From Paratinospora sagittata (Eukaryota; Streptophyta; Magnoliopsida; Ranunculales; Menispermaceae), in the NCBI GenBank assembly GCA_035771175.1, contig CM069600.1, positions 11,121,729-11,185,728 of the forward strand: a stretch of 64,000 bases of DNA. The letters are read 5' to 3'. How positions within the stretch are numbered: the first letter of the stretch is position 1; the number at the start of each line of letters is the position of its first letter. Made by a program: the position numbers and the translations under genes. Below the pieces are notes generated by a model. It saw only the letters and a program-made list of their open reading frames with translations. It searched no databases and was not told where the DNA came from. Positions 1 through 63,977 of this stretch are shown piece by piece.

Positions 1-1883
1 ATGTGCTAGAAAGTGAGGTGAGTGGAGGAGGGAATCCAATAATGTGATAGAAAGTGAGGTGAGTGGAGAGAAAGGAAAAAAAATAAAAGAAAAGAATAGG
101 AAGGAAAGAAGAAGAGAAAGAAAGAGGGAGTTGCAGAAGGAAGATCTCTGCGACGTTTTCATCAAATAGCTGGATCTTTGGGATATATGATCAGATTAAG
201 CTAAACATTTGTCAGCAAGTTCGTAGCTTATGGTTATTCATTCTGGTCGGTGGAGATCTTGATCAGAGGTTTCGTCTAAGACATCTAACCTCTCAAACAA
301 GCTGGTCAAAAAGTCTAGATTTCTCGCGTCATTTCACTCAAACTAATAGATCTCTCCATATACCGTTGGATGGATACACAATTTGGATACATAGTTTACA
401 ACTGATATTTCTGCATTCTGAACGGTGGAGATCTTGATTAGAGGTTTATTCTGAGAAATCTAACCTCTCAAACAAAGCAGGTCGGAAAGTCTGGATATCT
501 CTCGCCGTTTCGCTCAAACTTATAGATCTCCTCAATCTACCGTTGGATGAATATCAAATTTAGGTTTGTAGTTTACAACTGATATTTATACATTCGAAAC
601 GGTGCAGATGTTTATGAGTTAAGTATGTTGTGTGATATAGTCATCTAAGTTTGAGTATTTGCAGCAGGAAAAGAGAAATTGTCTAATTAGAGACTTGTTC
701 ATCAAAGATACTTATCTTTTCGGTCCACCGTTGGATTGAGCTGATATTTGGACAGAAGGTTTGTTTCTTCACACACTTCAATCTGTATGGTTAATTTTAT
801 GAGTACATATTTTTGTTGGTAGATTGATACATCTGAACAGAATATTAAATGAAGAATTGGTAGGGTTGCTTGTATTAGACCCAAATTTAGAATATAAACT
901 TAGACCTTTCCAAATAGCTTGATGTATGGTAGGATATTGATGAATGTTTCAGGATCTTGATTGGGTTGATTCGGTTTGGTGGTCGTGTGTGGTTAAATAC
1001 TCTCGCGATGCTTGGTTGTGAGTATACTTCATTTATGATTATATCTTTTATGTCATCATATCACTTATATATATTGTATGTTGAAAGAATGAATGTGTTC
1101 TAATGTTTTGAATGATGTATTGATTTGAGAAAACCTTATGACTTTGGTTGGACCCATCTATCTCGCTAATAGGGGGACTTAACATTGTCATAGGAGGGTT
1201 TTAGGGAAGGAAATGATTGGGGTCAACGGTACGGTGAAATAGACGTGCACTAGTAACCAATGCATGTGGAATGTGGATCCAATTTGATAAGCTTTTACTT
1301 GCATCGAACTTATTATAAATGCTTGATATCTATATGTTATGAGCTTTTAATCATGCTACACATTGACATGCGTACATGATATTTATTGATGAGTAGTTAT
1401 ATCTTGAGGGCCTTGCCTGCGAGAGAATCCAAGGCCTCGATGTGAGTTGAGAAGCATTTTGATTGAACTGTGTTTTAAATTATGAAGTATTATATTTTGG
1501 ATTATGTAATTATAACACTTACCACATTGTAGTATGGATGAGTTGAGACTTGTTAGATAGACCGTGTGGGCATATGACGGTTTTTATTTGTACCCACAAT
1601 TTTGGACTTTTTGTGTATGTTAATTTTAATGGACTGTAGGGATTATGATTTTATTTATGGTTCATTTTTATGGATTATCTCTTGTCTTTGATGATTAATA
1701 CGGTGGGTAGTTTTGTTTAATACCTTTTGATATTATGTCGTTGTTTGAGATAAGGCTCGTAGGGTCTCAACCACCTCACGGGAGTTGAGGAGTGGTCGGA
1801 GATGCCTACGCCGGGCGTCCCGCCCCGGCATTCCGCATCCCATTCCCTGCGGGGTTGGGGGTCCGGGGTGCGGGGTCGCCACA
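1..1883 (+). mobile_element. 5' LTR of Ty3/gypsy element A (left end outside window)
   Basis: The stretch aligns by eye with the 3' LTR at 17954..20864 and with the solo LTR at 61018..63977, and ends in the same GC-rich block GGGGTCGCCACA. It starts inside the LTR: the first base matches about 18387 of the 3' LTR, so roughly 430 bp lie upstream of the window. Compared with the 3' LTR it lacks about 475 bp at position 921 (counterpart near 19273..19746) and about 95 bp near 1397 (counterpart near 20279..20374). A second copy of a short repeat ending in 'cactagtaacc' near 1250, present in the other two copies, is also missing. These differences and many substitutions mark an old insertion. LTRs carry the promoter and polyadenylation signals of the element. 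Confidence 0.9.
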
Positions 1884-2166
1884 GTTGGTATTAGAGCCTG
1901 ATTTTACTAGGTTTGGTCTATGTATTAGACTTAGATGACTTTGACCTAGGAATTAGGTGAGAGATTTAGGTGATTGAAAAGCTTAAAGGAACTAACTTAA
2001 AAGCCTTGCTATCATATTTTCTGCGTGTATTATATGATATGGGAAGTTATGAGGCTTTGTTAATGTTTTAAATGTGTGATGGTTGCTTGTATTTCTACTT
2101 CTCAGTGTCATGAGGAGGAGCGAGACATTGTGACAGCCACGCACAGGGCCATCCGATGATGACCGG
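1884..2166 (+). other. Primer binding site and leader of element A
   Basis: Immediately after the LTR end and two bases (GT) comes TGGTATTAGAGCC at 1886..1898, one base off the TGGTATCAGAGCC complement of plant initiator tRNA-Met that primes minus-strand synthesis in many plant LTR elements. The rest is the untranslated leader up to gag; no gene is seen in it. Confidence 0.85.
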
Positions 2167-3399: not shown

Positions 3400-5430
3400 C
3401 AGGACTTTGGTGGGAGGTACTCTTATTATTTGTGGTACTTCTATGCTTATATTATTTGATGTTGGGTCTACATTATCATTCATATCTGGACGTATGGTAG
3501 ATAGTTTGCATTTGACTCCCATTAGGGCTAGTACATGGTTAGTGGTAAGTACTGTAGCTGGGGAGAGGATCTACCCGAACATGTTCTGTAGCCAGTGTGT
3601 GGTTCAGATTGGTGATGTTGAGATACCTATTGACTTTCGAGTCCTAGAGTTTTTAGAGTTTGATGCAATTCTAGGATGGATTGGCTCGCGGCCTATCATG
3701 CAGTTGTTTACTGTTTCGCGAAGGAAATCATTTTTCAGGTCCCCGAACACCCAGTGTTTACACTACAGGGTAGAGCTTCAAACCAGACAATCACAAGGGG
3801 TAGATTTGTGACTGATGGAGATAGGGAGATTTTGGCTAGGTTAGTACCTGATGACGAAGAGACTAGTGAGGCGATACTTGAGGATATTGCCATTGTTAGG
3901 GACTTTCCAGATGTGTTTCCTGCGGATCTTCCAAGATTACCCCCGAAGCGAGAGATCGATTTCATTATGGAACTAGTCCCTAGCACGAAGCCTATCTCCA
4001 TGGCACCATATAGAATGGCACCAGCCGAGTTGAGAGAGTTGCAAAAACAGCTCGAGGAGTTATTGGCTAAGGGCTTTATTTGCCTGAGCGTGTCACCCTG
4101 GGGAGCTCCAGTTCTTTTTGTGAAAAAGAAAGATGGGAGCTTGCGGTTGTGCATCGACTATCGCCAATTGAACAGGGTGGCCATCAAGAACAAATATCCT
4201 CTCCTAAGGATTGATGACTTGTTTGATCAGTTGAGGAGAACGAGGTATTTTTCGAAGATTGATTTGCTCTCCGGGTATCATCAGCTGAGGATCAGGGATG
4301 AGGATGTGCCTAAGACAGCATTCAGAACCCGCTATGGACATTATGAGTTCCTTGTGATGCCATTTGGTGTGACTAATGCACCGGCGATGTTCATGGACAT
4401 GATTCAGAGGGTCTTTAGGCAGTATCTGGATAAGTTTGTCATCGTCTTCATTGATGACATATTGGTGTATTCCAAGACTCAGGCTGAGCATGAAGAACAC
4501 CTTAGAGTGACCTTGCAAACTCTGAGAGAGCATAGGCTATATGCAAAGCTGAGCAAGTGCGAGTTTTGGATCACCGAAGTGAAGTTCTTAGGTCATGTGG
4601 TGAGTTCTGAGGGGATTTCAGTTGATCCGTTTAAGGTCGAAGCCATTATCAGTTGGCCTAGGCCTACCACAGTGACCGAGATCAGAAGCTTTCTTAGGTT
4701 AGCTGGTTACTATAGGAGATTCGTTCAGGGATTCTCCAAGATAGCTACGCCTATGACTAGGCTCACCCAGAAAGATGTGTCATTTGTATGGACCGAGGAG
4801 TGTGAGAATGTCTTTTTAGAGCTGAAGAAAAGATTGACATCTACGCCAGTGTTGATTTTGCCAGAGGCTGATCAGGAGTTGGTTATCTATACTGATGCCT
4901 CTCGTATCGGCTTGGGTTGCGTGTTGATGCAGAAGGATAGGGTCATTGCTTATGCATCGAGGCAGTTGAAGGTGCATGAAAAGAACTACCCTGTTCATGA
5001 CTTAGAACTGGCTGCAGTGGTTTTTGCTTTGAAGATTTGGAGGCATTATCTCTATGGTGAGAGATTCACTTTGTATTCTGACCATAAGAGCCTCAAATAC
5101 TTGTTCTCTCAGAAGGAATTGAACATGAGGCAGAGAAGGTGGTTAGAGCTCCTCAAAGACTATGATTTTACATTGGAATACCACCCAGGTAAAGCCAATG
5201 TAGTGGTTGATGAGTTGAGCAGGAAGCAGGTAGAGACAGTTATGGTAGCACGCCAGATGTCTCATGAGTGGAAACTACTTGAGGCGGCTATGGTTATGAG
5301 TATATGTGCTACCCCTTCAGATCAGATTGTGATATGTGCTCAAATGAGAGCTCAGCCTACACAAGTCCAGGAGGTAATTGACCAACAGAGACTTGACGTT
5401 GATCATGAGATGTACAAGTCTTGGGCTGAA
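3400..5430 (+). pseudogene. Element A pol, N-terminal part: protease, reverse transcriptase, RNase H
   Basis: A protease-like segment ([13 protein letters not shown]; the usual DSG is DVG) precedes a frameshift near 3674, where two bases appear missing relative to element B. An open frame at 3676..5430 then carries reverse transcriptase ([26 protein letters not shown], catalytic FIDD near 4450) and RNase H (IYTDAS near 4885, [20 protein letters not shown]). The frame breaks off at 5430, where element B inserted after CTGAA, and continues as integrase at 16554. Related sequences belong to Ty3/gypsy chromoviruses, probably Tekay-like (inference from the C-terminal region). Confidence 0.92.
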
Positions 5431-8315
5431 TGTAACCACCCACTTTTCGCACCTGACGTCATGATGACGTGGACTGCCAATACGTGGTCTTGTACACGTA
5501 GTCGATGTGTAAAATACCTGTGTATTGTGTGTACGAGGTAGTTTTATAAATTTGCGTGTTTGATATGTATTAGTGTATAATGGCCTAATACATGAAATAA
5601 TCATGTGTTATGATCAATTAGGTGTTAAATTACATGTGGTATAATCAATTAGGCAATAAATCTAATACTGTTCACATGCTCATTAAATGAATAAATAATA
5701 AAATGAATAGATTAAACAAATAAGGTGGCTTGTGCATGTTATGTAATAGGTGTCTTACTCAAATTCAGCCACCATGAACTCAAATTGACACCTATTGGCT
5801 TGTATGTAACATGTGTCTTAATGAATGTAACATGTGTCTTAAGCAAATTGACACCTATTGGCTTGTATGTAACATGTGTCTTAAGCAAATTGACACCTAT
5901 TGGCTTGTATGTAACATGTGTCTTAATGTATGTAACATGTGTCTTAAGCAAAGTGACACCTATTGGCTTGTATGTAACATGTGTCTTAAGCAAATTGACA
6001 CCTATTGGCTTGTGCATGCTATGTAACATGTGTCTTAAGCAAATTCAGCCACCATGAACTCATTTAGACACCTATTAGCTTGTTGGCATGAATTGTTTAG
6101 TGGCTGAAATGTGCAAGTGAAGTGCATACCAGAATATTAAGCTAGAGAGAAATGGAGAATACGGTTGAAGAAGAAGGAGATTTTGGAGCTCCAAAGGAAG
6201 GTGAGATCCATAGTTTTAGATGTGAAAGTTTCATATTCAAACTCTCCTCTTCATTTTATACATTATATGTGACATGCGACAACTTTCCATGGCTAGTTTG
6301 AAACTGGAAAGTGATGAGTTTGGATTGAAATGGAGGTGAATTGAAGCTCAAACAATGGGGGTTTGATTTCTGGATTGTGGGTAAGTTTTCTAATGATAAA
6401 TTCATTAAGTTTCAGTGATTGAATGGTAGTAATTTAATGTATTTGAATTGATGAAAATGGGAAATGTTCATGGCTGAATTTACAGATTTCAAACCTGATT
6501 TTAATAACTGAATTCTGTTATTTTGATAAAGTTATTTGCTGGAATTTAGTCTTACATATTTGGTGACCATTTTGATGATTAAAAACACTGGTTTTTATGG
6601 GAAGAACATGATGTTCCAGCCATGTTAAAACAGGGTTTTTGGAACCCAATTTGAGTGACCATTTGTAGTCTTTTCTTATGTGTATTGATTGGAAATTGGT
6701 CTTGACTATTCTGTGATGATAAATTACAAAGATTGGAGTGCAAAGTATGTGAAATTCTGAGTTAAGGATGTATACAAGTTGCTGGAAAAAATTCAGATTT
6801 GAGACTGATTTGGTAAGATGCTTACCAGTACATTTAGGTTGAATTAGTGATTAATTGATGCTTTAGTTGATAAATTCATGTGCTGGAAATTTAGAAATTG
6901 GGCAATGGCAATACATTGGTAAGTTGGTCAATGATAGATTTTGATCAAGTTGATGGGTAATTGGCTGAAAATTTAGTGCTGGAAATGTTAGAGCATTTGA
7001 AGAATGCTTAGGTAACTTGCTTAGGGATAAAATTGATTAACTTATAGAGATGGAAATTTTGTGTTAATTTGGTGATCAAATGAATACTTTGATCATGTGC
7101 TGAAAATTCTATCTTAGTAACTGAAATGGTAAGGGAATGGGTTATGGATACTTGGTAATTAATCAAGTGATTAAATTCATTTTTCTAGAATTCATTTGTA
7201 TGTGTGTAATGTGTAATTTGCAGTGGGTGGCTTATGACTTGGATGAGGATTTGTGAACACAATTGAAGTATTGGTGAATTGGTGAAAACTTGTGGACTTA
7301 GGCAAAATTTTGTGATTTGTGAGTATTTCTCACCTTACTTCTCCATGTATAGCATTGTAGATATATGAAATTGAATTCTTGAATGATATGCATTATATTA
7401 TATATGTGCATTGTATTTATGATCATGAGCACGAATTTTATGCATTAACATGGCCTTAGGTATTTCGGATTAAATACCTTGGCATTGGATTTCTTTCTAT
7501 TTACTTGTTCTTTAGGGAAAAGTGCCTTGTGAAAAGGACTTTTCGAATCACTAAGGAATGTAAGGGTAGAAGGATTAGTTGGATAACGTGTTGGTTTGAA
7601 CCCATGGCGCAATGGGGGAAATGTAGGCAATGTTATCCTGATATGACCTCCTGTTGAGGCTTTTCTACATATCTTTTATGAAAATGATGCATAATTATAT
7701 CTTTAATTTGGAAGCATGAATCATATATTTTCTTAATGCATTTCAATTTACCAATGTTATTTCAAGTAACATACATGTTTTACATAAGTGCATATGTGGA
7801 GATTTTTGTGAAAAGTATTCACTGAGCTAGTTGAGCTCATTCCATTTTCCCTTATATTTTTCAGGATCAGATCGTAAAGGAAAGGGCAAGGCTTAGAGTT
7901 GGTGTAGTTTGCCTTACTTCTTGTTGATGTGAGTTTTGATTTGTACATAAGGAAAATAGGAGAAGATATTTGTGTTTTGTTTTGTTAATGTATAATTATC
8001 ACAGATACTATGATATATAACATATAGTTCGTGAGACAATTTTGATATGTATATGCTAAATGGAATAATAATAAAATATCCATGTTTATAGTAAGGATAG
8101 TCGAATCTTGTGGATTGGGTCGATGACCTCATATTCTGGATGATGATGCCATATCTCGGTATTTAATTCAACTATCCTGATCATATACATATTATGTCTT
8201 TGGATCGTATGTAACCTTCGGAGTAGAGGCTTATCAGTGCCTCAGGTTTGTCGGGTTGTGACATTCTCTGGGGTACTGTGCCGGTCGTGACGTCACCCGG
8301 GAAGGGGTCGCGACA
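5431..8315 (+). mobile_element. 5' LTR of element B
   Basis: 2885 bp, beginning TGTAACCACCC (the 3' copy has TGTAACGACCC) and ending GGGGTCGCGACA. Its ends form an imperfect terminal inverted repeat, as expected for integrase recognition. It contains a block of 42-bp tandem repeats near its start. Nearly identical to 13178..16062. Confidence 0.95.
5783..6045 (+). repeat. 42-bp tandem repeats within 5' LTR of element B
   Basis: About five to six copies of a unit containing TTGACACCTATTGGCTTG followed by TATGTAACATGTGTCTTAA, some with a shorter spacer. Because 42 is a multiple of three, long spurious open frames occur on both strands. The same block is at about 13530..13792 in the 3' LTR. It could be a transcriptional enhancer array in U3 (inference). 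Confidence 0.9.
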
Positions 8316-8529
8316 ATATTGGTATCAGAGCCTGAAGTTGAGAATACCTACGGTCAAGTTATAAAATCTTTAAGAAAGATAAAAGCTTTAGAATATTATG
8401 TTTTGATTGTATGGGTATTATATGGGTAGTTAGATTATGAGTAATGATATCCATAGTATGCTACCCTGCCTGATGTATTTTGCCATTGACATTGCAGCTT
8501 TTTGTAGAAAGGCAAAATCAGGGTTAGCA
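8316..8529 (+). other. Primer binding site and leader of element B
   Basis: ATAT separates the LTR end from TGGTATCAGAGCC at 8320..8332, an exact match to the initiator tRNA-Met complement. The leader extends to the gag start. An upstream in-frame ATG at 8437 would add 31 residues. Confidence 0.92.
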
Positions 8530-11500
8530 ATGGACCCTAGCGATCAAGATAGGCTGAAGAGGTTGGAGGAAACGGTTACTATCCTGCAGCAGCAGAATGC
8601 TCAACTTTTTGAGATGATTACTAAGCTGCAACAAGATAGGCCACGTGTTGATGCACCTGCTGTTCAGGGTGTGGGCACTAGTAGTGTTGGTGTCATGGCT
8701 GTCACTCCTCCTGCTGAAATTACTGTACCGACTCCTGAGTCTGGTGCAGACGTTGAGGAGAAGAAACGATATGAGAAAGAGATGAAAGCATTCAAGATAC
8801 GAGAACCTCCAACATTTTCAGGCAGTTTGAAGCTTGAGGATGCTGAGAGTTGGATTCAGCGCATTGAGGTCATCCTGAATGATATGCAGGCTCTAGACAG
8901 AGACAGAGTTCGTCTGGCTAGATTTAAGTTGGCTGATGCGGCTGATAAATGGTGGGAAACTACTCAGAGATCTCTTGGTGAGATCAAAACTTGGATGAAA
9001 TTTAAGGAGTTGTTTTATGCTACTTACTACCCGCGATCAGAGGTTGATCGGAGACGAAATGAGTTCATTCAGTTGACCCAGGGTAGTAAATCAGTTCGAG
9101 AGTACGAGCATGAGTTTACTAGACTCTCACTCTTTGCTCCAGAGTTAGTACCTACCGATGCTTTGAGGATGGCGAGATTGAGGGATGGTTTCCGGGATCA
9201 GATTCGACAGGGATTAGCTTTGGCTGGTGTGTCGACTTATGATCAGGCTTTGAGGCAGGCTATGGATTTTGAGACTGCTGAGGCTGCGGCTAGATCTAAG
9301 ACGACGACTATTCCGCCAGTACCTGTATTTCCTTCTGCTTCATCATTTCCATCGTCAGGAAAACTCAAAAAGAAGTGGGACAAGAAGCCTTGGAATAAAG
9401 ATAAGAAGCCCAAGTCCAGTGGTGGATTTTCTGGAGTTGATTCATTTGTTGCTCCTGCTTCTGTAGCATCTGTTCCAGCAGTGTACAATAAGGGAGATCA
9501 GACTCCAGTGAGATCACAGAGTCAGTCACAGACTGCATCATCAGTTCCGAGACCCGTTATTACTTGCTTCAGATGTGGTGTGAAAGGCCACAAGGCTAAT
9601 CAGTGTTCTGCGCCGAGGCAATTTTCTGCTCCAGCTATTTCTGTTACATCTGGTACGAAGGAGAAAGCTAAGGCAGTGACTGAACCAGATCCTGATGCCA
9701 GTAAGAATCTGATTGAGGGTATGATTTCTATTTGTGATATAATGTTGCATGTGTTGATTGATTCTGGTTCTACGTTATCATTCATATCTGGACATGTGGT
9801 AGATAGACTTAAATTGCCTGTGGTTAGAGCTAGTACACCTTTGATTTTGAGTACAGCTACGGGTGAGAGAATCTACCCAGACATGATTTGCATGAATTGT
9901 GTGGTCAAATATGAGGATCTAGAAATGCTTGTGAACCTTAGGGTGTTAGAGTTCCTCGATTTTGATGCTATTTTGGGTATGGACTGGTTGGCGGCGTATC
10001 ACGCCCAAGTGGATTGTTTCCATAAACAGATTGTATTACAGATCCATGGGCGGCCATCAGTTGTCTACAGAGGTATGACTTCTACCAGACCACCTACCCG
10101 AGGCAGACTGGCTACTGATGTAGAAACTGCACTCATGGCTAGTATTAGGCCATTAGAAGAAAAGGATCAAGGCATTCAGATTTCTGATATTCCAATAGTG
10201 AGTGAATTTCCCGATGTGTTTCCTGAAGATTTACCGGGATTACCACCCAAGAGGGAAATTGACTTCATTATTGAGCTAATGCCTGATACTAAACCTATCT
10301 CTATTCCACCTTATCGGATGGCACCGAAGGAGTTGCAAGAACTCAAGGTGCAGGTAGAAGAGCTTTTGAATAAAGGGTTTATTAACCCTAGTATGTCACC
10401 TTGGGGTGCACCGGTTCTTTTTGTGAAAAAGAAAGACGGGAGTCTGAGATTGTGTATAGATTACCGTCAGCTGAACAAAGTCACCATTAAGAACAAATAT
10501 CCTCTACCTCGCATTGATGATCTGTTTGATCAGTTAAATGGTGCCAAATTTTTCTCTAAGATTGATTCGAGATCAGGCTACCATCAGTTGAGGATTAGAG
10601 AAGAAGATGTCCCGAAAACTGCCTTCAGGACGAGATATGGTCATTATGAATTTCTGGTCATGCCATTTGGGCTAACGAACGCACCTGCGATGTTCATGGA
10701 TTTGATGCAGAGGGTGTTTAGACCATATCTAGATCATTTCATTATTGTCTTTATTGACGATATTTCGATATATTCCAAAACACGTGAGGAGCATGAGCAG
10801 CACCTCCGGATCACATTGCATACATTAAAAGAGCATAGGCTATATGCTAAACTCAGCAAATGTGAGTTTTGGATAAATGAGGTGAAATTTTTAGGTCATG
10901 TGGTTAGTGCTGAAGGTATTTCTGTTGATTCTGCTAAGGTCGAGGCAATTATAAATTGGCCAAGACCAACCACAGTGACAGAGATTCGCAGTTTTTTGGG
11001 TCTAGCTGGTTATTACAGAAGGTTTGTGGAGGGTTTTTCCAAATTAGCTACTCCACTTACTAGGCTAACTCAGAAAAAAGTGCCATATGTGTGGACTTCA
11101 GCATGTGAGGATGCTTTCAATGAACTAAAGAAAAAGTTGACTACTGCCCCGGTTTTAGTGCTCCCAGAACCTGGAAAAGAGTTGGTGATTTACACTGATG
11201 CATCACATGCAGGTTTAGGCTGTGTATTGATGCAGACGGGTAGAGTAATTGCTTATGCATCTAGACAGTTGAAGGTGCATGAGAAAAACTACCCTGTGCA
11301 TGATTTGGAGTTGGCAGCAGTAGTTTTTGCATTGAAATTGTGGAGGCATTACCTCTATGGGGAAAGGTTCACATTGTATTCTGACCATAAGAGTTTGAAA
11401 TACTTGTTTGACCAGAAGGAACTGAATATGAGACAGCGTAGATGGTTGGAATTCCTAAAGGATTATGACTTCACTCTAGAATATCATCCTGGAAAAGCCA

Positions 11501-13065
11501 ACGTTGTAGCTGATGCATTGAGCAGGAAACGTGTTGAGACAGGTGTGGTAGCATGTCAGATGGCCCATGAGTGGCGACTTTTGGAGAGAGTGACTATGAT
11601 GAGTGTCCTCTCTATGGCTCCACATGTTGATATTTGTGCTCAGATGCATATTCAGTTGACAGATTCTCATATTCAGAGGATTAAAGATATGCAGCAGCAT
11701 GATCCTGATCTTGGTATGTATAATTCTTGGGCGGATAGTACGGACAGAGTTGAGTGGCAGAGAGGTCCAGATGGTATCTTGCGTTATCAGGGGAGGTTAT
11801 GGGTACCCACAGATAGAGAATTGAGGGCAGAGTTGTTACAGAAGGCACACAGATCTCAGTATACCATTCACCCAGGGTCTACTAAAATGTATCATGATAT
11901 GAAAAGAACCGTTTGGTGGCATGGGATGAAGAAAAGTATAGCTGAGTACGTGCAGAAATGTGACGTGTGTCAACAAGTAAAAGCTGAACACCAGAGGCCA
12001 GGAGGCCAGATGCAACCATTATCCATTCCAGAATGGAAATGGGAGCATATTACTATGGACTTTATCACAGGGCTACCTAGATCTCAGGGTAGATATGATG
12101 CCATCTGGGTGATTGTTGATAGATTGACGAAGTCTGCGCACTTTCTTCCGATGAACACCAGAGACTCGATTGACAGACTGAGCAGATTGTATGTGCGGGA
12201 GATTGTGAGATTACATGGGGTACCTCTTTCTATTGTATCAGATAGAGATCCGCGTTTTACATCGAGGTTTTGGCAGGCCATGCAGACTCGGTTTGGTACT
12301 CACCTCCGGCTTAGTACAACATTTCATCCTCAGACTGATGGCCAGACTGAGAGGGTGATTCAGATGCTGGGAGATATGCTTAGATCTTGTGCATTAGAGT
12401 TTGGTGGGACTTGGAGTGAAAGTTTACCATTATGTGAATTTGCTTATAATAACAGCTATCAAGCCAGTATAGGTATGGCACCTTATGAGGCCTTGTATGG
12501 TAGGCCGTGTAGATCTCCGACTTGCTGGTATGAAGTGGGAGACTCACAATTATTGGGGCTGAAAGTTGTTGTTGATCATACTGAACAGATCAAGCAAATT
12601 AGGCAGAAATTGAAAGTTGCCCAAGATCGACAAAAGAGTTATTTTGATAACCGACATAGACCTTTAGAGTTTGCAGTGGGTGACCTGGTATTGCTTAAGG
12701 TCTCGCCACGAAAAGGTCAAATGCGGTTTGGGGTGAAAGGAAAACTAGCTCCCCGTTTTATTGGACCATTTAAGGTCTTGGAGAGGATTGGTCCGCTAGC
12801 ATACAAACTTGCTCTACCTCCTCAGTTAGTCGGTGTTCATAATGTATTTCATGTTTCTATGTTGAGAAAATACCATACAGACCCGACTAAGTATCCAGAC
12901 CCAACACGCATTTTAGATGTCACACAATTACAAGTTGGGGAGGATGCTACTTATGAAGAGAAGCCTATTCAGATTCTTGACAGGAGGATTCAAAAGTTGC
13001 GAAATAAAGAAATTCTTTTAGTCAGAGTCAAATGGCAATTTCATGACAATGAGGAGCAAACCTAG
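8530..13065 (+). CDS. Element B gag-pol polyprotein (nearly intact, truncated at its last residues)
   Basis: A single open frame of 1511 codons encodes the whole replication machinery of a Ty3/gypsy element. I chose ATG 8530 because it begins the gag-like heptad region ([16 protein letters not shown]). Domains by residue: gag with a zinc knuckle [14 protein letters not shown] at 346..359; aspartic protease LIDSGST with D411; reverse transcriptase with FIDD (D743, D744); RNase H YTDAS with D890; integrase with an HHCC finger starting at H1107 and catalytic D1177, D1238 and E1274. The last two are 35 residues apart, the classic DD35E spacing. The C-terminal part ([23 protein letters not shown]) is chromodomain-like, placing it in the chromoviruses. 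A TAG at 13063..13065 replaces a probable Trp codon; 16 more codons follow to TGA at 13114..13116, so the tail is clipped. Otherwise it looks capable of function. Confidence 0.95.
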
Positions 13066-13164
13066 GAGCGGGAAGATCAGATGCGGAAGCTATTTCCTGA
13101 TTTGTTCACCTCTTGAGGTAATAATTAAAGTACAATATCTAAAATTTCGAGGACGAAATTTCCT

Positions 13165-13177
13165 AAGTTGGGGAGAT
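13165..13177 (+). other. Polypurine tract of element B
   Basis: AAGTTGGGGAGAT directly precedes the 3' LTR start at 13178. Such purine runs resist RNase H and prime plus-strand synthesis. It is preceded by a TTTCGAGGACGAAATTTC motif that is also found, slightly altered, before the 3' LTR of element A. Confidence 0.8.
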
Positions 13178-16062
13178 TGTAACGACCCACTTTTCGCACC
13201 TGACGTCATGATGACGTGGACTGCCAATACGTGGTCTTGTACACGTAGTCGATGTGTAAAATACCTGTGTACTGTGTGTACGAGGTAGTTTTATAAATTT
13301 GCGTGTTTGATATGTATTAGTGTATAATGGCCTAATACATGAAATAATCATGTGTTATGATCAATTAGGTGTTAAATTACATGTGGTATAATCAATTAGG
13401 CAATAAATCTAATACTGTTCACATGCTCATTAAATGAATAAATAATAAAATGAATAGATTAAACAAATAAGGTGGCTTGTGCATGTTATGTAATAGGTGT
13501 CTTACTCAAATTCAGCCACCATGAACTCAAATTGACACCTATTGGCTTGTATGTAACATGTGTCTTAATGTATGTAACATGTGTCTTAAGCAAATTGACA
13601 CCTATTGGCTTGTATGTAACATGTGTCTTAAGCAAATTGACACCTATTGGCTTGTATGTAACATGTGTCTTAATGTATGTAACATGTGTCTTAAGCAAAG
13701 TGACACCTATTGGCTTGTATGTAACATGTGTCTTAAGCAAATTGACACCTATTGGCTTGTGCATGCTATGTAACATGTGTCTTAAGCAAATTCAGCCACG
13801 ATGAACTCATTTAGACACCTATTAGCTTGTTGGCATGAATTGTTTAGTGGCTGAAATGTGCAAGTGAAGTGCATACCAGAATATTAAGCTAGAGAGAAAT
13901 GGAGAATACGGTTGAAGAAGAAGGAGATTTTGGAGCTCCAAAGGAAGGTGAGATCCATAGTTTTAGATGTGAAAGTTTCATATTCAAACTCTCCTCTTCA
14001 TTTTATACATTATATGTGACATGCGACAACTTTCCATGGCTAGTTTGAAACTGGAAAGTGATGAGTTTGGATTGAAATGGAGGTGAATTGAAGCTCAAAC
14101 AATGGGGGTTTGATTTCTGGATTGTGGGTAAGTTTTCTAATGATAAATTCATTAAGTTTCAGTGATTGAATGGTAGTAATTTAATGTATTTGAATTGATG
14201 AAAATGGGAAATGTTCATGGCTGAATTTACAGATTTCAAACCTGATTTTAATAACTGAATTCTGTTATTTTGATAAAGTTATTTGCTGGAATTTAGTCTT
14301 ACATATTTGGTGACCATTTTGATGATTAAAAACACTGGTTTTTATGGGAAGAACATGATGTTCCAGCCATGTTAAAACAGGGTTTTTGGAACCCAATTTG
14401 AGTGACCATTTGTAGTCTTTTCTTATGTGTATTGATTGGAAATTGGTCTTGACTATTCTGTGATGATAAATTACAAAGATTGGAGTGCAAAGTATGTGAA
14501 ATTCTGAGTTAAGGATGTATACAAGTTGCTGGAAAAAATTCAGATTTGAGACTGATTTGGTAAGATGCTTACCAGTACATTTAGGTTGAATTAGTGATTA
14601 ATTGATGCTTTAGTTGATAAATTCATGTGCTGGAAATTTAGAAATTGGGCAATGGCAATACATTGGTAAGTTGGTCAATGATAGATTTTGATCAAGTTGA
14701 TGGGTAATTGGCTGAAAATTTAGTGCTGGAAATGTTAGAGCATTTGAAGAATGCTTAGGTAACTTGCTTAGGGATAAAATTGATTAACTTATAGAGATGG
14801 AAATTTTGTGTTAATTTGGTGATCAAATGAATACTTTGATCATGTGCTGAAAATTCTATCTTAGTAACTGAAATGGTAAGGGAATGGGTTATGGATACTT
14901 GGTAATTAATCAAGTGATTAAATTCATTTTTCTAGAATTCATTTGTATGTGTGTAATGTGTAATTTGCAGTGGGTGGCTTATGACTTGGATGAGGATTTG
15001 TGAACACAATTGAAGTATTGGTGAATTGGTGAAAACTTGTGGACTTAGGCAAAATTTTGTGATTTGTGAGTATTTCTCACCTTACTTCTCCATGTATAGC
15101 ATTGTAGATATATGAAATTGAATTCTTGAATGATATGCATTATATTATATATGTGCATTGTATTTATGATCATGAGCACGGATTTTATGCATTAACATGG
15201 CCTTAGGTATTTCGGATTAAATACCTTGGCATTGGATTTCTTTCTATTTACTTGTTCTTTAGGGAAAAGTGCCTTGTGAAAAGGACTTTTCGAATCACTA
15301 AGGAATGTAAGGGTAGAAGGATTAGTTGGATAACGTGTTGGTTTGAACCCATGGCGCAATGGGGGAAATGTAGGCAATGTTATCCTGATATGACCTCCTG
15401 TTGAGGCTTTTCTACATATCTTTTATGAAAATGATGCATAATTATATCTTTAATTTGGAAGCATGAATCATATATTTTCTTAATGCATTTCAATTTACCA
15501 ATGTTATTTCAAGTATCATACATGTTTTACATAAGTGCATATGTGGAGATTTTTGTGAAAAGTATTCACTGAGCTAGTTGAGCTCATTCCATTTTCCCTT
15601 ATATTTTTCAGGATCAGATCGTAAAGGAAAGGGCAAGGCTTAGAGTTGGTGTAGTTTGCCTTACTTCTTGTTGATGTGAGTTTTGATTTGTACATAAGGA
15701 AAATAGGAGAAGATATTTGTGTTTTGTTTTGTTAATGTATAATTATCACAGATACTATGATATATAACATATAGTTCGTGAGACAATTTTGATATGTATA
15801 TGCTAAATGGAATAATAATAAAATATCCATGTTTATAGTAAGGATAGTCGAATCTTGTGGATTGGGTCGATGACCTCATATTCTGGATGATGATGCCATA
15901 TCTCGGTATTTAATTCAACTATCCTGATCATATACATATTATGTCTTTGGATCGTATGTAACCTTCGGAGTAGAGGCTTATCAGTGCCTCAGGTTTGTCG
16001 GGTTGTGACATTCTCTGGGGTACTGTGCTGGTCGTGACGTCACCCGGGAAGGGGTCGCGACA
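13178..16062 (+). mobile_element. 3' LTR of element B
   Basis: 2885 bp, same length as the 5' LTR and differing at about seven positions. It ends GGGGTCGCGACA at 16062. The next five bases, ATATT, match the bases that separate LTR and primer binding site at the 5' end, not the target duplication. Confidence 0.95.
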
Positions 16063-16083
16063 ATATTATACATAAGGCCTTTT
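16063..16083 (+). other. Linker between 3' LTR of B and the palindrome
   Basis: Reads ATAT followed by TATACATAAGGCCTTTT. The first four bases equal the pre-primer-site bases at 8316..8319. The remainder is nearly the same as the linker after the unrelated 3' LTR of element A (20865..20882). There is no matching copy on the other side of the palindrome. Confidence 0.85.
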
Positions 16084-16548
16084 TGTCACACCCCAGTACA
16101 CAGCACACCGCAGTGTCTAGTACCCCCGGGATGTGATGGGTACCCATACCCCAGCCATTACGATCCATAATATTGTTATACCTCAATACACAGCCCGCAC
16201 ACAGCGTCTAGTATCCCCGAGGTTTTTCGTCCCCAAAGAGGGCCTCCCCCAAGATCGAACTCATGACCTTATATTCATAAGGTTTAAATTCGAATCTTGA
16301 GTAGCCACTGAACCATTGGCTCAGTGGTTACTCAAGATTCGAATTTAAACCTTATGAATATAAGGTCATGAGTTCGATCTTGGGGGAGGCCCTCTTTGGG
16401 GACAAAAAACCTCGGGGATACTAGACGCTGTGTGCGGGCTGTGTATTGAGGTATAACAATATTATGGATCGTAATGGCTGGGGTATGCGTACCCATCACA
16501 TCCCGGGGGTACTAGACACTGCGGTGTGCTGTGTACTGGGGTGTGACA
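16084..16548. repeat. 465-bp palindrome (foldback) with LTR-end-like termini
   Basis: Two arms of about 230 bp are inverted copies with few mismatches, meeting near 16316 around CCACTGAACCATTGGCTCAGTGG. Its termini are TGTCACACCCCAG and CTGGGGTGTGACA; the latter resembles the end of family C LTRs (GGGGTGTGACA at 36377). On the plus strand TGGCTCAGTGG (16317..16327) fits the tRNA/SINE A-box, and AGTTCGATCT (16371..16380) resembles a B-box. The other arm has the same motifs pointing outward on the minus strand. No protein is encoded. It is immediately followed by CTGAA, the target duplication of element B. Confidence 0.9.
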
Positions 16549-16553
16549 CTGAA

Positions 16554-17953: not shown

Positions 17954-20864
17954 TGTGACGCCCCAAAAATTATTTCATCTAGCCGATAACCCTATTGCAT
18001 TTTGCCCAAACTCTATGTGTTGCCTTGATATGTTTGGTGTTTGTTTGATGGTTGTTTAATATTTATATAGTTGATGCTTGATAATGTATATAAATATGTG
18101 TATTATAAATTGTATATGGGTCATGTTAAATTAAAGTATAATGCATATGTTATTATTTATGCATGGGCCCGTTAAACCATGAATTGATATGAGTTAGGAT
18201 TGATTGAATAAAAGGATAAATGAGAATGAAAATTTGGTGTATTAAATGGATTGGACATTTAAAATGCATGGAAGCATGAGATTGGTTAAAGTACATGTGG
18301 TTGGTATGGGTAGTATGAGACCAACACATGTGAAGGTTGGTGCATGAAAGTGGACAAGTGTCCCATGCCCACTTCTCTAATCCAAGAATGTGCTAGAAAG
18401 TGAGGTGAGTGGAGAGAAAGGAAAAAAATAAAAGAAAAGAAGAGGAAAGAAAGAAAGAAGAAGTGAAAGAAAGAGGGAGTTACAGAAGGAAGATCTCTGC
18501 GACGTTTTCATCAAAGTGCTGGATCTTTGGAATATATGGTTAGATTAAGCTAAAACTTTGTCAGCAAGTTCGTAGCTTATGGTTATTCATTCTGGTCGGT
18601 GGAGATCTTGATCAGAGGTTTCGTCTAAGAGATCTAACCTCTCAAACAAAGCTGGTCGGAAAGTCTAGATTTCTCGCGCCATTTCACTCAAACTTATAGA
18701 TCTCCTCAATATACCGTTGGATGGATATGAAATTTGGGTATGTAGTGTACAACTGATATTTCTGAATTCTGTATGGTGGAGATCGTGATTAGATGTTTCT
18801 TCTGAGAGATTCAACCTCTCAAACAAATCTGGTTGGAAAGTCTAGATTTCTCACGCCATTTAGCTCAAACTTATAGCTCTCCTCAATCTATCGTTGGATA
18901 GATATCAAATTTTGGTATAGAGTTTACAACTAATATTTCTGCATTCTGAACGGTGAAGATGTTTATGATTTAAGTATGTTGTGTGATATAGTCATCTGAG
19001 TTTTTGTATTTGCAGCAGGAAAGGAGAAATTGTCTGATTAGAGACTTGTACATCAAAGATACTTATCTTTTCGGTCCGCCGTTGGATTGGGTTGATATTT
19101 AGACAGAAGGTTTGTTTCTTCACACACTTCAATCTGTACGGTTAATTTTGTGAGTACATATTTCTGTTGGTAGATTGATAGATCTGAACAGAATATTAAA
19201 TGAAGAATTGGTAAGGTTGCTTGTATTAGACCCAAATTTAGAATATAAACTTAGACCTTTCCAAATAGCTTGCATGTCAACTATGTTGACCTAGTTGCCA
19301 TTGTTGATGAACCCATGATGCAAAATCAGTGATATACATGGCTGAACATGGTGACCTAGTGTAAATCGACAATATGACCTAAGTATGAAAAATTTTATAT
19401 TTTAGGGCTTTTGATGCTTTTGGCCTAGAATCATTGAATTGATGCAACTTATGTTTAATTAAGCATGATTAGGGTTGATTATGCTACTGATTTGGTGGTT
19501 GTGCCCATATCATGGGTTAGACCTACTTGTGATCAAGTGACCCAATTTGGGAATGTTTATGCCTAAGGAATTGAAAATCAGTATTTTTTATTAATAGAAA
19601 GGTTTATGTATGAGAACTATGCATTAGAGGCCTAAGTCATGTGATTTGAGTTGAATGATGGGATTAGATGGGATTTAGGCCTATTGTCTATATGTGGGCT
19701 GATTTAGGGTTGATGTGTAATGTCCATGTGATTGAGCATAGAAATTGATGTATGGTAGGATATTGATGAATGTTTCAGGATCTTGATTGGGTTGATTCGG
19801 TTTGGTGGTCGTGTGTGGTTAAATACTCTCGCGAGGCTTGGTTGTGAGTATACTTCATTTATGATTATATTTTTTTATGTCATCATATCACTTATATATA
19901 TTGTATTTTGAAAGCATGAATGTGTTCTAATGTTTTGAATGATGCATTGATTTGAGAAAACCTTATGACTTTGGTTGGGCCCATCTATCTGGCTAATAGG
20001 GGGACTTAACATTGTCATAGGAGGGTTTTAGGAAAGGAAATGATTGGGGTCAACGGTACGGTGAAATAGACGTGCACTAGTAACCCCAAATAAAACATGA
20101 TTGGGATCAACGGTACGGTGACATAGACGTGCACTAGTAACCCAATGCATGTGGAATGTGGATCCAATTTGATAAGCTTTTACTTACATCGAACTTATTA
20201 TAAATGCTTGATATCTATATGTTATGAGCTTTTAATCATGCTACACATTGACATGCATACATGATATTTATTGATGAGTATTGATAGTATATTTGAATTC
20301 TATTCACTGGGCACCGTTGGCTCATCCTCATTTTCCTCTTTCCGGTCCTTCTGTCCCGAATAACGGCAAAGGAATGGTTATATCTTGAGGGCCTTACCTG
20401 CGAGAGAATCCAAGGCCTCGATGTGAGTTGAGAAGCATTTTGATTAAACTGTGTTTTAAATTATGAAGTATTATATTTTGGACTATGTAATTATAACACT
20501 TACCACATTGTAGTATGGGTAAGTTGGAACTTGTTAGATAGACCGTGTGGGCATATGACGGTTTTTATTTGTACCCATAATTTTGGACTTTTTGTGTATG
20601 TCAATTTTAATGGACTGTAGGGATTATGATTTTATTTATGGTTCATTTTTATGGATTATCTCTTGTCTTTGATGATTAATACGGTGGGTAGTTTTGTTTA
20701 GTAACTTTTGATATTATGTCGTTGTTTGAGATAAGGCTCGTAGGGTCTCAACCACCTCACGGGAGTTGAGGAGTGGTCGGAGATGCCTATGTTGGGCGTC
20801 CCGCCCCGACATTCCGCACGCCATTCCCTGCGGGGTTGGTGGTCCGGGGTGCGGGGTCGCCACA
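17954..20864 (+). mobile_element. 3' LTR of element A
   Basis: 2911 bp from TGTGACGCCCC to GGGGTCGCCACA. The boundaries are fixed by the solo copy at 61018..63977, whose 5-bp duplication defines its ends. It keeps segments that the 5' LTR has lost and has a tandem duplication of a short segment ending in 'cactagtaaccc' (near 20035..20145). The last 120 bp form a strikingly GC-rich block. Instead of genomic target sequence, the LTR is followed by GT, a linker and a palindrome. Confidence 0.92.
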
Positions 20865-20882
20865 GTATATATAAGGCCTTTT
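20865..20882 (+). other. Linker between 3' LTR of A and the palindrome
   Basis: GTATATATAAGGCCTTTT. GT equals the two bases between the 5' LTR and the primer site of element A (1884..1885). The rest matches the element B linker at 16063..16083 except for one or two bases. Confidence 0.8.
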
Positions 20883-21547
20883 TATCGCGTCCTGACCCAG
20901 CCAAAACGCGGGCGCACCACCGCAGTGGAGAACGCCAGCCACGTATATCACAATATTGTCATATCGCCATGTAGTAACCCAACCGCAGTTGGTATACATC
21001 GAAACGATTATTTGTCTGCCACTATTCATGAATAGTGCAGGGCCTCCCTAGGAATTTAACTCAAGACCTCCATTAAGGAGTTAGATTTCGCATTCCTAGT
21101 AACCATTGAGCCAATGGTTCAGTAGCTACTAGGAATGCGAAATCTAACTCCTTAAGGGAGGTCTTGAGTTCGATTCCTAGGGAGGCCCTGGACTATTCAT
21201 AAATAGTGACAGACAAATAATCGTTTCGATGTAGACCAGCTGCGGTTGGGTTGCTACATGGCGATATGACAATATTGTGAGATACGGGGCTGACGTTCTC
21301 CACTGCGGTGGTTATTGGTTCAGTAGCTACTAGGAATACGAAATCTAACTCCTTAAGGGAGGTCTTGAGTTTAATTCCTAGAGAGGCCCTGCACTATTTA
21401 TGAATAGTGGCAGGCAAATAATCGTTTCGATATAGACCAGCTGCGGTTGGGTTGCTACATGGCGATATGACAATATTGTGAGATACGGGGCTGACGTTCT
21501 CCACTGCGGTGGTGCGCCCGCATTCTGGCTGCAGTCAGGGTGTGATA
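20883..21547. repeat. 665-bp palindrome with duplicated right arm, downstream of element A
   Basis: The left arm (20883..about 21112) is inverted at about 21113..21312, and that right arm is then repeated at about 21312..21547. Termini are TATCGCGTCC (left) and GGGTGTGATA (right); the right end reads TATCACACCC in reverse, close to the TGTCACACCCC terminus of the element B palindrome. On the plus strand TGGTTCAGTAG (21115..21125) and AGTTCGATTCC (21167..21177) resemble tRNA A- and B-boxes with 52-base spacing. Short open frames here are by-products of the symmetry. Confidence 0.87.
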
Positions 21548-22679
21548 GTTTTCCTCCCACATCACTTAATGAAGCCTTTTCCCATTCAAAATTTCATGGT
21601 GACTGCTCATTTTTTTAGCATCACTTGTGGGGTTCCCTGTGTGGGTTGAATGTGTGTGTTAACAGTGTTATTACTTTCAAAAAAATATTTAGAATTTCAT
21701 AGTAAATTAGAAAATTTTAGGTTTATAAACTATTTGTTATTTATTTAGAAATCAATAAATAATATTTATAGTTATATGTTTTATTTACCTATTGAATTGA
21801 ATTTTTATAGTTTGTTTTAGTTTTTTAACCTTAAATAATTTTGGTTATATTATGGATCCAAAAGCCTAGTTCAAAGACCCAATCAATACAACTCTTGGAT
21901 TGGGTTTGGCCAAGATTTTTTAATGCATGTCAGACTTGGCTTAGCCTGGTATTTTTTTAGACTCAGCTCGGCCAAGCCTGAATACTTTTAGGCCTGATAG
22001 GGCTTCGCCGGCCTAGTTCTAGTGGGCCAAATTGTCACCACTACCTCTTGTCACACCTTCAATCACTTATAATCTTTCAGTCCTTAACTCGTTATTTAAC
22101 CGTTCATTTAAATCTATAATGTATAAATTATAATCTGAACTATTCATTTAAATCTGAACTATGCATCCCATATTTATAATGTATAAATTAGACTTTCCAT
22201 GCAACTGAAACACTAAAATTAAACCTATAGTACAATTAGAAACCCTTCAAAAATTAAAAATTTACTTAACTTACACACTTAAACCTAAAGTATTATACTA
22301 TGCTCCTAGCCCTTAACCCGTTTTTCAACTATTCTACCCCACTTAAATCTGAACTATTTATCTCATATTTATAATGTATAAATGAAACTTTTCATCCAAC
22401 TCAAACACTAAAATTAGACAATTAGAAACCCTTTAAAAATTAGAAATTTATTCAAATTAACACACTTTCTATTTTTATTATTACACTACTAATCAACTCG
22501 GACATTTCCTATTTGACACATTAAAATTAGACATTTTCTATTTAAATTTGGAAAAAAATCTTATTATAATAAAAATATTTGAATGAGTTCACCGCATAAC
22601 CATTTTTGCTAAACTTTCAAAACTAACCCATTAAACTTATATAACCAATTTAAAATCTAATTGACTTTTGATTTGGGTT
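21548..22679. other. AT-rich region without genes
   Basis: No convincing gene is seen. A stretch at 21890..22030 rich in GGCC/AGCCTG motifs looks like decayed repetitive DNA. A possible LTR start TGTCACACC at 22049 might begin the LTR whose 3' part lies downstream, but no target duplication supports it. Confidence 0.6.
22080..22450. repeat. Imperfect direct duplication in AT-rich DNA
   Basis: About 22080..22265 recurs at about 22312..22450, sharing CTTAA(C)CCGTT, CATATTTATAATGTATAAAT, CAAACACTAAAATTA and TTAGAAACCCTT. It looks like an old tandem duplication. Confidence 0.7.
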
Positions 22680-24822: not shown

Positions 24823-25019
24823 AACATAGCAATCAATTCACTCATATAGTAATTACTCAATGCTGATTAATCTTTTGTAATAAAATGATAATTTCCTGTA
24901 TCTATTTGGTTGGTGTAAATTATTGATATCAATGGCCTAGAAGGTAGTTCCTATAGTTTGAATAATACTATTGTGTTGAAATATTTTTATTGAACGTGTT
25001 ATTTTTTTACATATGTATT

Positions 25020-61017: not shown

Positions 61018-63977
61018 TGTGGCGACCCCGCGCCCCGGACCACCAACCCCGCAGGGAATGGCATGCGGAATGCCGGGGCGAGACGCCCGGCGTAGGCATC
61101 TCCAACCACTCCTCAACTCCCGTGAGGTAGTCGAGACCCTACAAGCCTTATCCCAAACAACGACATGATATCAAAATGTACTAAACAAAACTACCCACCG
61201 TATTAATCATCCAAGACAAGAGATAATCCATAAAAATGAACCATAAATAAAATCATAATCCCTACAGTCCATTAAAATTGACATAGACATAAAATCTAAA
61301 ATTGTGGGTACAAATAAAAACCGTCATATGCCCACATAGTCTATCTAACAAGTCCCAACTCACCCATACTACAATGTGGTAAGTGTTATAATTACATAAT
61401 CCAAAACATAATACTTCATAATTTAAAACACAATTCAATCAAAATGCCTCTCAACTCACATCGAGGCATTGGATTCTCTCGCAGGCAAGGCCCTCAAGAT
61501 ATGACTACTCCTTTGCCCTTATTCGGGACAGAAGGACCTGAAAGAGGAAAATGAGGGTGAGCCAACGATGCCCAGTAAATAGAATTCAAATATGCTATCA
61601 ATACTCATCAATAAAAACCATGTATGCATGTCAATGTGTAGCATGATTAAAAGCTCATAACATATAGATGTCAAGCATTTATAATAAGTTCGATGCAAGT
61701 AAAAGTTTATCAATTTGGATCCACATTCCACATGCCTTGGGTTACTAGTCCACGTCTATTTCACCGTGCCGTTGATCCCAATCATGTTTACTTGGGTTAC
61801 TAGTCCACGTCTATTTCACCGTGCCGTTGATCCCAATCATTTCCTTCTTAAAACCCTCCTATGACAAGGTCAAGTCCCCCTATTAGCCAGATAGATGGGC
61901 CCAACCAAAGTCATAAGGTTTTCTCAAATCAATGCATCATTCAAAACATTAGAACACATTCATGCTTTCAACATACAATATATATAAGTGATATGATGAC
62001 ATAAATGATATAATCATAAGTGAAGCCTACTCACAACCAAGCCTCGCGAGAGTATTTAATCACACACGACCACCAAACCGAATCAACCCAATCAAGATCC
62101 TGAAACATACATCAATATCCTACCATACATCAATTTCTATGCTCAATTACATAGACATTACAAATCAACCCTAAATCAGCCCACATATAATTAATAGGCC
62201 TAAATCCCATTTAATCCCATCATTCAACTCAAATCACATGACTTAGGCCTCTAATGCATAGTTCTCATTCATAAACCATTCTATTAATCAAAAATACTGA
62301 TTTTCAATTCCTTAGGCATAAACATGTCCAAATTTGGGTCACTTGATCACAAGTAGGCCTAACCCATGATATGGTCACAACCACCAAATCAGTAGCATAA
62401 TCAACCCTAATCATGCTTAATTAAACATAAGTTGCATCAATTCAATGATTCTAAGCCAAAAGCATCAAAAGCCCTAAAATATGAAATTTTCCATACTTAG
62501 GCCATATTGTCGATTTACACTAGGTCACCATGTTCAGCCATGTATATCACTGATTTTGCATCATGGGTTCATCCACAATGGCAACTAGGTCAACATAGTT
62601 GACATGCAAGCTATTTGGAAAGGTCTAAGTTCATATTCTAAATGTAGGTCTAATACAAACAACCCTACCAATTCTTCACATGTATTATTCTGTTCAGATG
62701 TATCAATCTACCAACAGAAATATGTAATCACAAAATCAACCGTACAGATTGAAGTATGTGAAGAAACAAACCTTCTGTCCAAATATCAGCCCAATCCAAC
62801 GGTGGACCGAAAAGATATGTATCTTTGATGAGCAAGTGTCTAATCAGACAGTTTCTCCTTTCCTGCTGCAAATACCCAAACTCAGATGGCTATATCACAC
62901 AAAATAATTAACGTACAAATATTTCCACCGTTCAGAATACAGAAACATCTGTTGTAAACTACATACCCAAATTTGATATCCATCCAACGGTACGTTGAGG
63001 AGATCTACAAGTTTTACCGAAACGGAACGAGAAACCCAGAAATTCCGACCAGCTTTGTTTCAGAGGTTATATCTCTTAGCACAAGCCTCTAATTACGATC
63101 TCCACCGTTCAGAATGTATAAATATCAGTTATAAACTACATATCCAAATTTGATAACCATCTAACGGTAGGTTTAGGAGATCTATAAGTTTGAGCGAAAC
63201 AGTGCGAGAAGTCCAGACTTTCCGGCCAGCTTTGTTTGAGAGGTTAGATCTCTCAGAAGAAACCTCTGATCAAGATCTCCACCGACCAGAATGAAGAACC
63301 ATAAGCTACGAACGTGCTGACAAAATTTGAGCTCAATCTGACCGTAAATTCCAAAGATCCAGTTCTTTGATGAAAATCTCGCAGGGTTCTTACTCCTGCA
63401 ACTCTCTCCTTCTTTCTCTTCTTCTTTCCTTTCTCTTCTTTTCTTTCTCTTCTTCTTTCTTTTCTCTCCACTCACCTCTTTCTAGCACTTCCTTGATTCC
63501 CTCCTTGATTCTCTCCTTGATTCTCTCCTTGTTTTCCTCTCCTTGGTTCCCTCCACTCATTCTAGCACTTCCTTGAAGAAGACAAGTGGGCATTGGACAC
63601 TTGTCCACTTTCATGCACCAACCTTCACATGTGTTGGTCTCATACTACCCATACCAACCACATGTATTTTAAATGTCCAATCCATTTAATACACTAAATC
63701 TTCAATTTCATTTATCCTTTTATTCCATCAATCCTAACCCATATCAATTCATGGTTTAATGAGCCCATGCATAAATAATAACATATGCATTAAACTTTAA
63801 TTTAACATGACTCATATACAATTTATGATACATATATTTATATACATTATCAAGCATTAACTATACAAACATTAAACAATCATCAAACAAACACCAAACA
63901 TATCAAGGCAATACATAGAGTTTGGGCAAAATACAATTGGGTTATGGGCTAGATGAAATAATTTTCGGGGCGTCACA
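61018..63977 (-). mobile_element. Solo LTR of family A, minus strand
   Basis: 2960 bp. On the minus strand it begins TGTGACGCCCC (63977) and ends GGGGTCGCCACA (61018). It is flanked by TCAAT at 61013..61017 and 63978..63982, a perfect 5-bp duplication. It retains segments lost from the 5' LTR of element A and also has the tandem duplication seen in the 3' LTR (61738..61850). The CT-rich region at 63395..63560 gives misleading open frames. A solo LTR is what remains after recombination between the two LTRs of a full element. No palindrome adjoins this copy. Confidence 0.95.

Follow-up and report, generated by a model that had tools for sequence, protein, structure and literature searches.

The 64,000 nucleotides of Paratinospora sagittata contig CM069600.1 analyzed here (the window) contain a young Ty3/gypsy-type retrotransposon, element B, inserted in pol of an older relative, element A (Table 1). 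An earlier note on this DNA had remarked that CTGAA, which precedes the 5′ long terminal repeat (LTR) of element B, gives way to ATATT directly after the 3′ LTR and reappears just beyond a 465-bp palindrome; it had proposed that an LTR element, a linker and the palindrome integrated as one unit. Our analysis confirms these points and indicates that a common hairpin-shaped mobile sequence has apparently been fused repeatedly to the right end of copied retrotransposons, before they insert. The palindrome is not, as the note had supposed, element B's own terminus. It is a separate repeated family joined to the ends of LTR complementary DNA (cDNA), because ordinary B copies carry duplications flush with their LTRs and lack the linker, and because the palindrome has 5-bp duplications of its own.

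Composite units in the window

Element B has near-identical direct LTRs (7 of 2885 positions differ), a primer-binding site (PBS) that we take to be of the initiator tRNA-Met type, and a single open frame of 1543 amino acids. Within this frame, reverse transcriptase (RT; residues 664-823) and RNase H (913-1011) precede the zinc-binding (1127-1184) and core (1204-1299) domains of integrase, which is the Ty3/gypsy order; the integrase core scores slightly under Pfam's cut-off. A duplication flush with both LTRs, present in seven control copies of B, is lacking in the window copy. Excision of positions 5431-16548 and of one CTGAA, with 180 nt of each flank joined, restores the pol frame of element A, with one stop codon shortly downstream of the join. 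Across this join, the restored sequence matches element B's own pol at 60 of 121 residues (E 5e-35); the alignment has no gap at the join itself, as the note had claimed, and three gap positions upstream of it.

The palindrome is real, with two 232-nt arms around one central base; the arms differ at 4 of 232 positions, and the RNA fold has a z-score of −52. The bases that separate the 3′ LTR from the linker, overlooked by the earlier note, are the ATAT spacer that element B carries between its 5′ LTR and its PBS. Both the LTR and the palindrome end in GACA. The right end of the integrated unit is the palindrome's GTGTGACA, and this holds, like the composition of the unit, for elements B and A of the window and for four more B-family units.

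Element A is constructed likewise, which had also escaped the note: beyond its 3′ LTR lies a homologous extension (20865-21547), and it has a spanning duplication of its own. Since GTTTT lies on both sides of element A plus palindrome, and CTGAA likewise for element B, both elements integrated with the palindrome as their right end. The linker TATAYATAAGGCCTTTTT follows the spacer in both (two window matches at no more than three mismatches, 0.02 expected), although the T of element A's GT is possibly the linker's first base. The two palindromes are related. Element A's left arm differs from its first right arm at 16 of 198 positions, and its LTR pieces differ at 2.4-8.2%. Solo LTR C, of the A family, offers an internal contrast. 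An assembly artefact at element B's palindrome is unlikely, because the palindrome family recurs at many places with exact duplications.

Table 1. Positions of elements A and B, their palindromic extensions and solo LTR C in the window.
Feature	Position	Strand	Remarks
Element A 5′ LTR	1..1883	+	Begins 492 bases before the window's first base, GTTTT ahead of it
Element A spacer and PBS	1884..1897	+	GT, then TGGTATTAGAGC
CTGAA, left duplication copy of B	5426..5430	.	
Element B 5′ LTR	5431..8315	+	TGTAACC...GTCGCGACA
Element B LTR-to-PBS spacer	8316..8319	+	ATAT
Element B PBS	8320..8331	+	TGGTATCAGAGC
Element B open gag-pol frame	8434..13065	+	gag, protease, RT, RNase H, integrase zinc finger and core
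Element B 3′ LTR	13178..16062	+	
Retained spacer	16063..16066	+	ATAT, read as untrimmed cDNA end
Element B linker	16067..16083	+	TATACATAAGGCCTTTT, read as copied 3′ end of hairpin RNA
Hairpin left arm	16084..16315	-	Antisense to the putative RNA
Palindrome central base	16316	.	
Hairpin right arm	16317..16548	+	A-box-like TGGCTCAGTGG start; end GGGGTGTGACA is the integrated right end
CTGAA, right duplication copy of B	16549..16553	.	
Element A 3′ LTR	17954..20864	+	
Element A spacer and linker	20865..20883	+	GT (spacer), then ATATATAAGGCCTTTTT
Element A palindrome	20884..21547	.	Left arm, first right arm 21115-21312, second right arm 21316-21547; end GTGTGATA
GTTTT, right duplication copy of A	21548..21552	.	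Left copy just outside the window
Solo LTR C, A family	61018..63977	-	Flush duplication ATTGA, no hairpin

Hairpins on LTRs and on their own

Genome-wide, we searched with the end of LTR B followed by spacer and linker, and scored the best 40 of 1593 candidates (an unscored first-look count). In eight of the 40 places, the window and seven others, the match extends through the linker; in 32 it covers the LTR end and stops at ATATT, as before a PBS. ATAT follows the LTR in all eight chimeras and is extra to the linker in six; one of them, L056, also keeps TGGTATCA, 8 nt of the PBS, at the joint. The earlier note had suggested looking for copies with 5-bp duplications spanning LTR to palindrome, and such copies exist: beside CTGAA and GTTTT in the window, exact spanning duplications are found in L050 (TATTC), L051 (ATCAA), L052 (TAAAA) and L055 (CCTAC). 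In the other three chimeras, the target bases agree at three of five positions (L053 and L054) or the left end was looked for and not found (L056). No LTR-flush duplication occurs in the seven B-family chimeras with both ends located. L053 and L054 are identical at 941 of 942 bases and so represent one insertion event, duplicated. The hairpins attached to B copies belong to different subfamilies, which implies several joining events. Start and end of the LTR are ~2.4-2.5 kb apart in L052-L055, which means that these units consist of LTR and hairpin without an internal region; the L050 unit spans three LTRs.

Regularly spaced B-family LTR ends at C11:36025045-36044100 were read as a tandem array (LTR-internal-LTR-internal-LTR), which ends in a hairpin and has a duplication around the whole array; matches ~7.7 kb apart on C12 and C15 were also read as tandem arrays. 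At L040:440-700, the first bases of LTR B, in reverse complement and ending GTTACA, come after a hairpin end.

Twenty of the 32 other B-family places served as controls. Their 3′ LTR end was located in 10, none of which carries the linker. Seven of these 10 have flush 5-bp duplications, two have no located left end and one has element sequence as its left flank.

A search of the plant's own genome (1.29 Gb) with one arm gave 1924 candidate places, likewise an unscored first-look count, and the best 40 were scored. We grouped the scored matches by hand into 40 sites and fetched the 39 other than the window; for 20 of them ~4.4 kb was included on either side, for the other 19 a few hundred bases. 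Duplications were called where a TGTCAC...GTGACA pair had equal k-mers outside, at lengths from 3 to 9 bp. By this test, hairpins standing alone have 5-bp duplications in 16 of the 39 places, with 6 bp in two places, 3 bp in one, and none of 4 or 7-9 bp; shifted decoy positions in the same 39 places gave no match. A further duplication, CGGAC in L021, was read by eye where the end motif has changed. No end of LTR A or B lies directly at the central hairpin in the 20 longer stretches. Flush B copies together with palindromes that stand alone in their own duplications had been named in the earlier note as the outcome that would speak against it; this pattern is seen in part, in 7 flush duplications at 10 located ends and in 16 of 39 hairpin places.

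The hairpin copies are mosaic: they are built from a single unit that occurs in either direction, some of its arms being incomplete. Among 66 arm starts, found with one exact word in 40 stretches, 22 come after the linker and 44 do not, as would fit the 3′ end of an RNA and an integrase-trimmed end, respectively. The linker ahead of arm starts begins raggedly, at any of its positions 1-8, and a switch at unit positions 248-251, adjoining the centre, was seen by eye in 12 of 31 centre rows. We read the mosaics, the two kinds of arm start and the switches at the centre as cDNA of a short RNA that was probably copied with repeated template jumps. Ten of the 31 centre rows, counted by eye, share one asymmetric 17-nt centre in either orientation, and inheritance of full palindromes is suggested by this recurrence. 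The palindrome centre thus looks old and inherited, although each palindrome might instead be made afresh at insertion. Two of the four differences between element B's arms lie within 12 nt of the centre, and both sites, swapped, also differ between element A's arms; outside the centre, 2 of 220 positions differ. In L021:4752-4829, three tandem copies of the 17-nt linker unit precede the next arm, as though an RNA 3′ end had been copied repeatedly. The window also holds a dense cluster of overlapping inverted repeats at 24938-26473, with arms of up to 226 nt that are 71-90% complementary.

Hairpins are attached to a further family, LTR E, as well. We looked at six places for an upstream duplication with TG after it, and three matched; the clearest, at an LTR start, is L015, where GAAAC surrounds an LTR E cut 301 bp before its end plus a hairpin. 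An LTR E copy in L018 is flush (GTGAA). In L026, the two copies of CCTTT enclose two hairpin ends with an LTR E piece between them, and we left this duplication out of the evidence for LTR-to-hairpin units; ATATA in L025 can be read in more than one way, since the hairpin there is followed by an inverted LTR E. In L011, a hairpin on LTR E keeps TGGTAT at the joint; the whole arrangement (L011:1154-3101) reads hairpin, LTR E piece, hairpin, the LTR end keeping ATAT and TGGTAT before the linker, and the outer 5-mers, GGTGC and GGTAC, are one base apart. L028:4362-6971 is an LTR E copy with a flush GTCAA duplication and a hairpin ~40 bp after its start, joined at a TATA common to LTR and linker. 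At L025:2623-5900, two LTR E copies in inverted orientation meet at a hairpin; the first begins TGTAACACCCC, preceded by ATATA, and the arrangement looks like another reverse-transcription mosaic.

At 36369-36394, LTR family D ends GGGGTGTGACA, followed by TTTAA and a PBS. Its 11-nt end is identical to that of element B's palindrome, so that family D may supply the integrase by which lone hairpins move. Elsewhere in the window, positions 29937-30710 hold a basic helix-loop-helix (bHLH) gene related to plant bHLH52/53, whose best-scoring relative is 50% identical over about half of the protein. The relatives of this gene place the host among flowering plants.

Origin of the joints

The composite integrated as one unit with spacer bases kept at the joint; control copies are flush, and hairpin copies are independent, with 5-bp duplications. 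Integration of an LTR element normally removes the spacer, and its retention therefore suggests that hairpin and LTR cDNA end were joined before integration. The joints fall at the end of U5 or within the first 8 nt of the PBS complement. We consider it probable that LTR retrotransposons are exploited by a separate, non-autonomous hairpin element, onto whose RNA their reverse transcription jumps and whose end integrase then uses. Here we infer from the sequences an RNA intermediate, the template jumping and the use of the LTR element's integrase.

The hairpin RNA would be ~250 nt long, with its 5′ end at the palindrome centre and its 3′ end at ...GTGTGACAAAAAGGCCTTATGTATA (...GGCCTTATGTATA). 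Reverse transcription that has reached the U5 end, with LTR, spacer and sometimes a few nucleotides of PBS or tRNA complement, would continue on the 3′ end of this RNA, and a second switch, at its 5′ end, would add the opposite arm. The chimeric cDNA would then end in GTGTGACA and not in its own U5 end. Hairpin ends resemble LTR ends, and the LTR element's integrase presumably trims at GTGTGACA and joins the composite with a 5-bp duplication; a palindrome alone would have two such ends and could integrate by itself. According to work on Ty3, plus-strand strong-stop DNA either includes 12 copied nt of tRNA or stops at the U5 end, with accumulation of dead-end products (PMC5371799). Such ends, combined with a jump of RT onto the hairpin RNA 3′ end, would explain both joint types and the units of LTR plus hairpin (L052, L055, L053/L054 and L015). 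That the hairpin represents an undescribed class of retroelement seems to us an evenly balanced proposition. Its members would be short RNAs with one mimic of an LTR right end, made palindromic by template jumping and so provided with two integrase-usable ends, which spread alone and as a replacement right terminus on the cDNA of several LTR families.

Several observations weigh against this account. The retained ATAT overlaps the linker's TATA in L051 and L052, so that the spacer is indistinguishable there, as is one of element A's two bases. The incomplete target match of L053/L054 and the missing left end of L056 have to be counted here, as has the absence of an upstream duplication in L010 and L012. 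Only the best 40 candidates were scored in each genome search, and the linker-first bias among B chimeras is partly due to a query that contained spacer and linker. The simple test revealed no duplication at 23 of the 39 hairpin places, and the match in L020, among the 16, belongs to a neighbouring hairpin. Moreover, the arms of element B's palindrome differ more than its LTRs (4/232 versus 7/2885, Fisher p 0.0065).

The joints would also look similar if two cDNAs had been joined end to end, and this is the main rival: host repair would have ligated double-stranded LTR cDNA to hairpin cDNA, after which integrase used the outer ends. Such ligation explains the untrimmed spacer, the variable few nucleotides of PBS complement, the ragged linker ends, and joints between other parts of hairpins or LTRs, such as those in L039 and L040. 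The repeated use of the linker end, the tandem linkers of L021 and the frequent switches by the palindrome centre look like copying rather than ligation, an argument that the query's bias toward linkers weakens. On balance we regard end joining as unlikely, although less so than any of the explanations that follow.

A later insertion of linker and palindrome at the exact 3′ LTR border of a flush element B, with the GACA at both ends as a short duplication, would have had to strike the same border in element A and in eight B-family copies. It would imply a 4-bp duplication, whereas lone hairpins show 5 bp and no locus scored at 4 bp. Nested insertion is rejected on the retained pre-PBS spacer between LTR and linker, clear in six of eight chimeras, and on TGGTATCA in L056; its probability is very small. 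The presence of a hairpin on both window elements might mean that it is a normal, inherited terminal part of a B subfamily. This is hardly probable, given that the hairpin is absent from the 10 located control 3′ ends, that different subfamilies of it sit on different B copies, that LTR E copies cut at different positions carry it too, and that it is common on its own; the flush controls led us to reject the palindrome as B's own end. It is equally improbable that the hairpins are a DNA transposon family resembling miniature inverted-repeat transposable elements (MITEs), with the LTR fusions as secondary rearrangements: inverted ends and 5-bp duplications agree with that, but spacer-keeping joints with spanning duplications and the two distinct kinds of arm start are left unexplained.

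We also rejected the hairpin RNA as an ordinary primer at the PBS, with which its 3′ end pairs poorly in a by-eye comparison. Rfam matches to plant microRNA precursors were set aside, all being under the gathering score and apparently due to the fold. Among viral contigs, a pattern search returned one unrelated contig only and a pol search no match.

Comparison with known systems

Element B resembles other Ty3/gypsy LTR retrotransposons in its gag-protease-RT-RNase H-integrase order, its LTRs, its tRNA-Met-type PBS and its 5-bp duplication, and differs in that its integrated unit terminates on the right in a foreign hairpin, with the U5 end left untrimmed in the interior. TRIM/SMART elements, which are small non-autonomous LTR elements, have TG...CA ends, a 5-bp duplication and no coding capacity. 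The hairpin shares these traits, but its arms are inverted head to head and it has no direct LTR pair; TGGTAT-type PBS motifs occur in the window at 1886, 8320 and 36383 only, none within a hairpin. As possible parallels to short interspersed nuclear elements (SINEs), element B's arms have an A-box-like start and a B-box-like core: both arms hold an A-box and GTTCGA (equalled in 23 of 20000 shuffles), element A's arms keep one box each or none, and ARAGORN found no tRNA. SINEs have the duplications and tail typical of long interspersed nuclear elements (LINEs), whereas the hairpin has exact 5-bp duplications and TG...CA ends; at the 3-9 bp tested, the 39 places did not show the variable duplication lengths of the LINE type. 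As in MITEs, the ends are terminal inverted repeats (TGTCACACCCC...GGGGTGTGACA).

Aberrant retroviral integrations that retain primer tRNA sequence likewise have an extra piece at the U5 end, there tRNA primer and here a mobile hairpin with its own usable end; a literature search for them gave no match. In Magnaporthe, one report describes several RNAs joined in one cDNA by template switching (WEIRD/Mg-SINE/MGL), one chimera having direct repeats around the whole (PMC2104539). Those are LINE chimeras, whereas here the element is an LTR retrotransposon, the joint lies at the U5 cDNA end and the duplications are of 5 bp. HIV proviruses with asymmetric LTRs have been described (PMC9278108). Plant LTR elements are reported to show a weak preference for palindromic targets (PMC6911290); this could account for an insertion close to a palindrome, though not for a duplication on both sides of it. 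Among the matches listed in the open-access literature, we found no LTR retrotransposon with a hairpin terminus, a search that included no repeat-database comparison.

LTR finders that expect a duplication flush with the LTRs would misjudge copies of this kind. If our interpretation is correct, reverse-transcription intermediates, namely untrimmed U5 ends and partial PBS or tRNA copies, have been recorded as chromosomal insertions. It would also suggest that short hairpin RNAs can use the machinery of LTR retrotransposons much as SINEs use that of LINEs.

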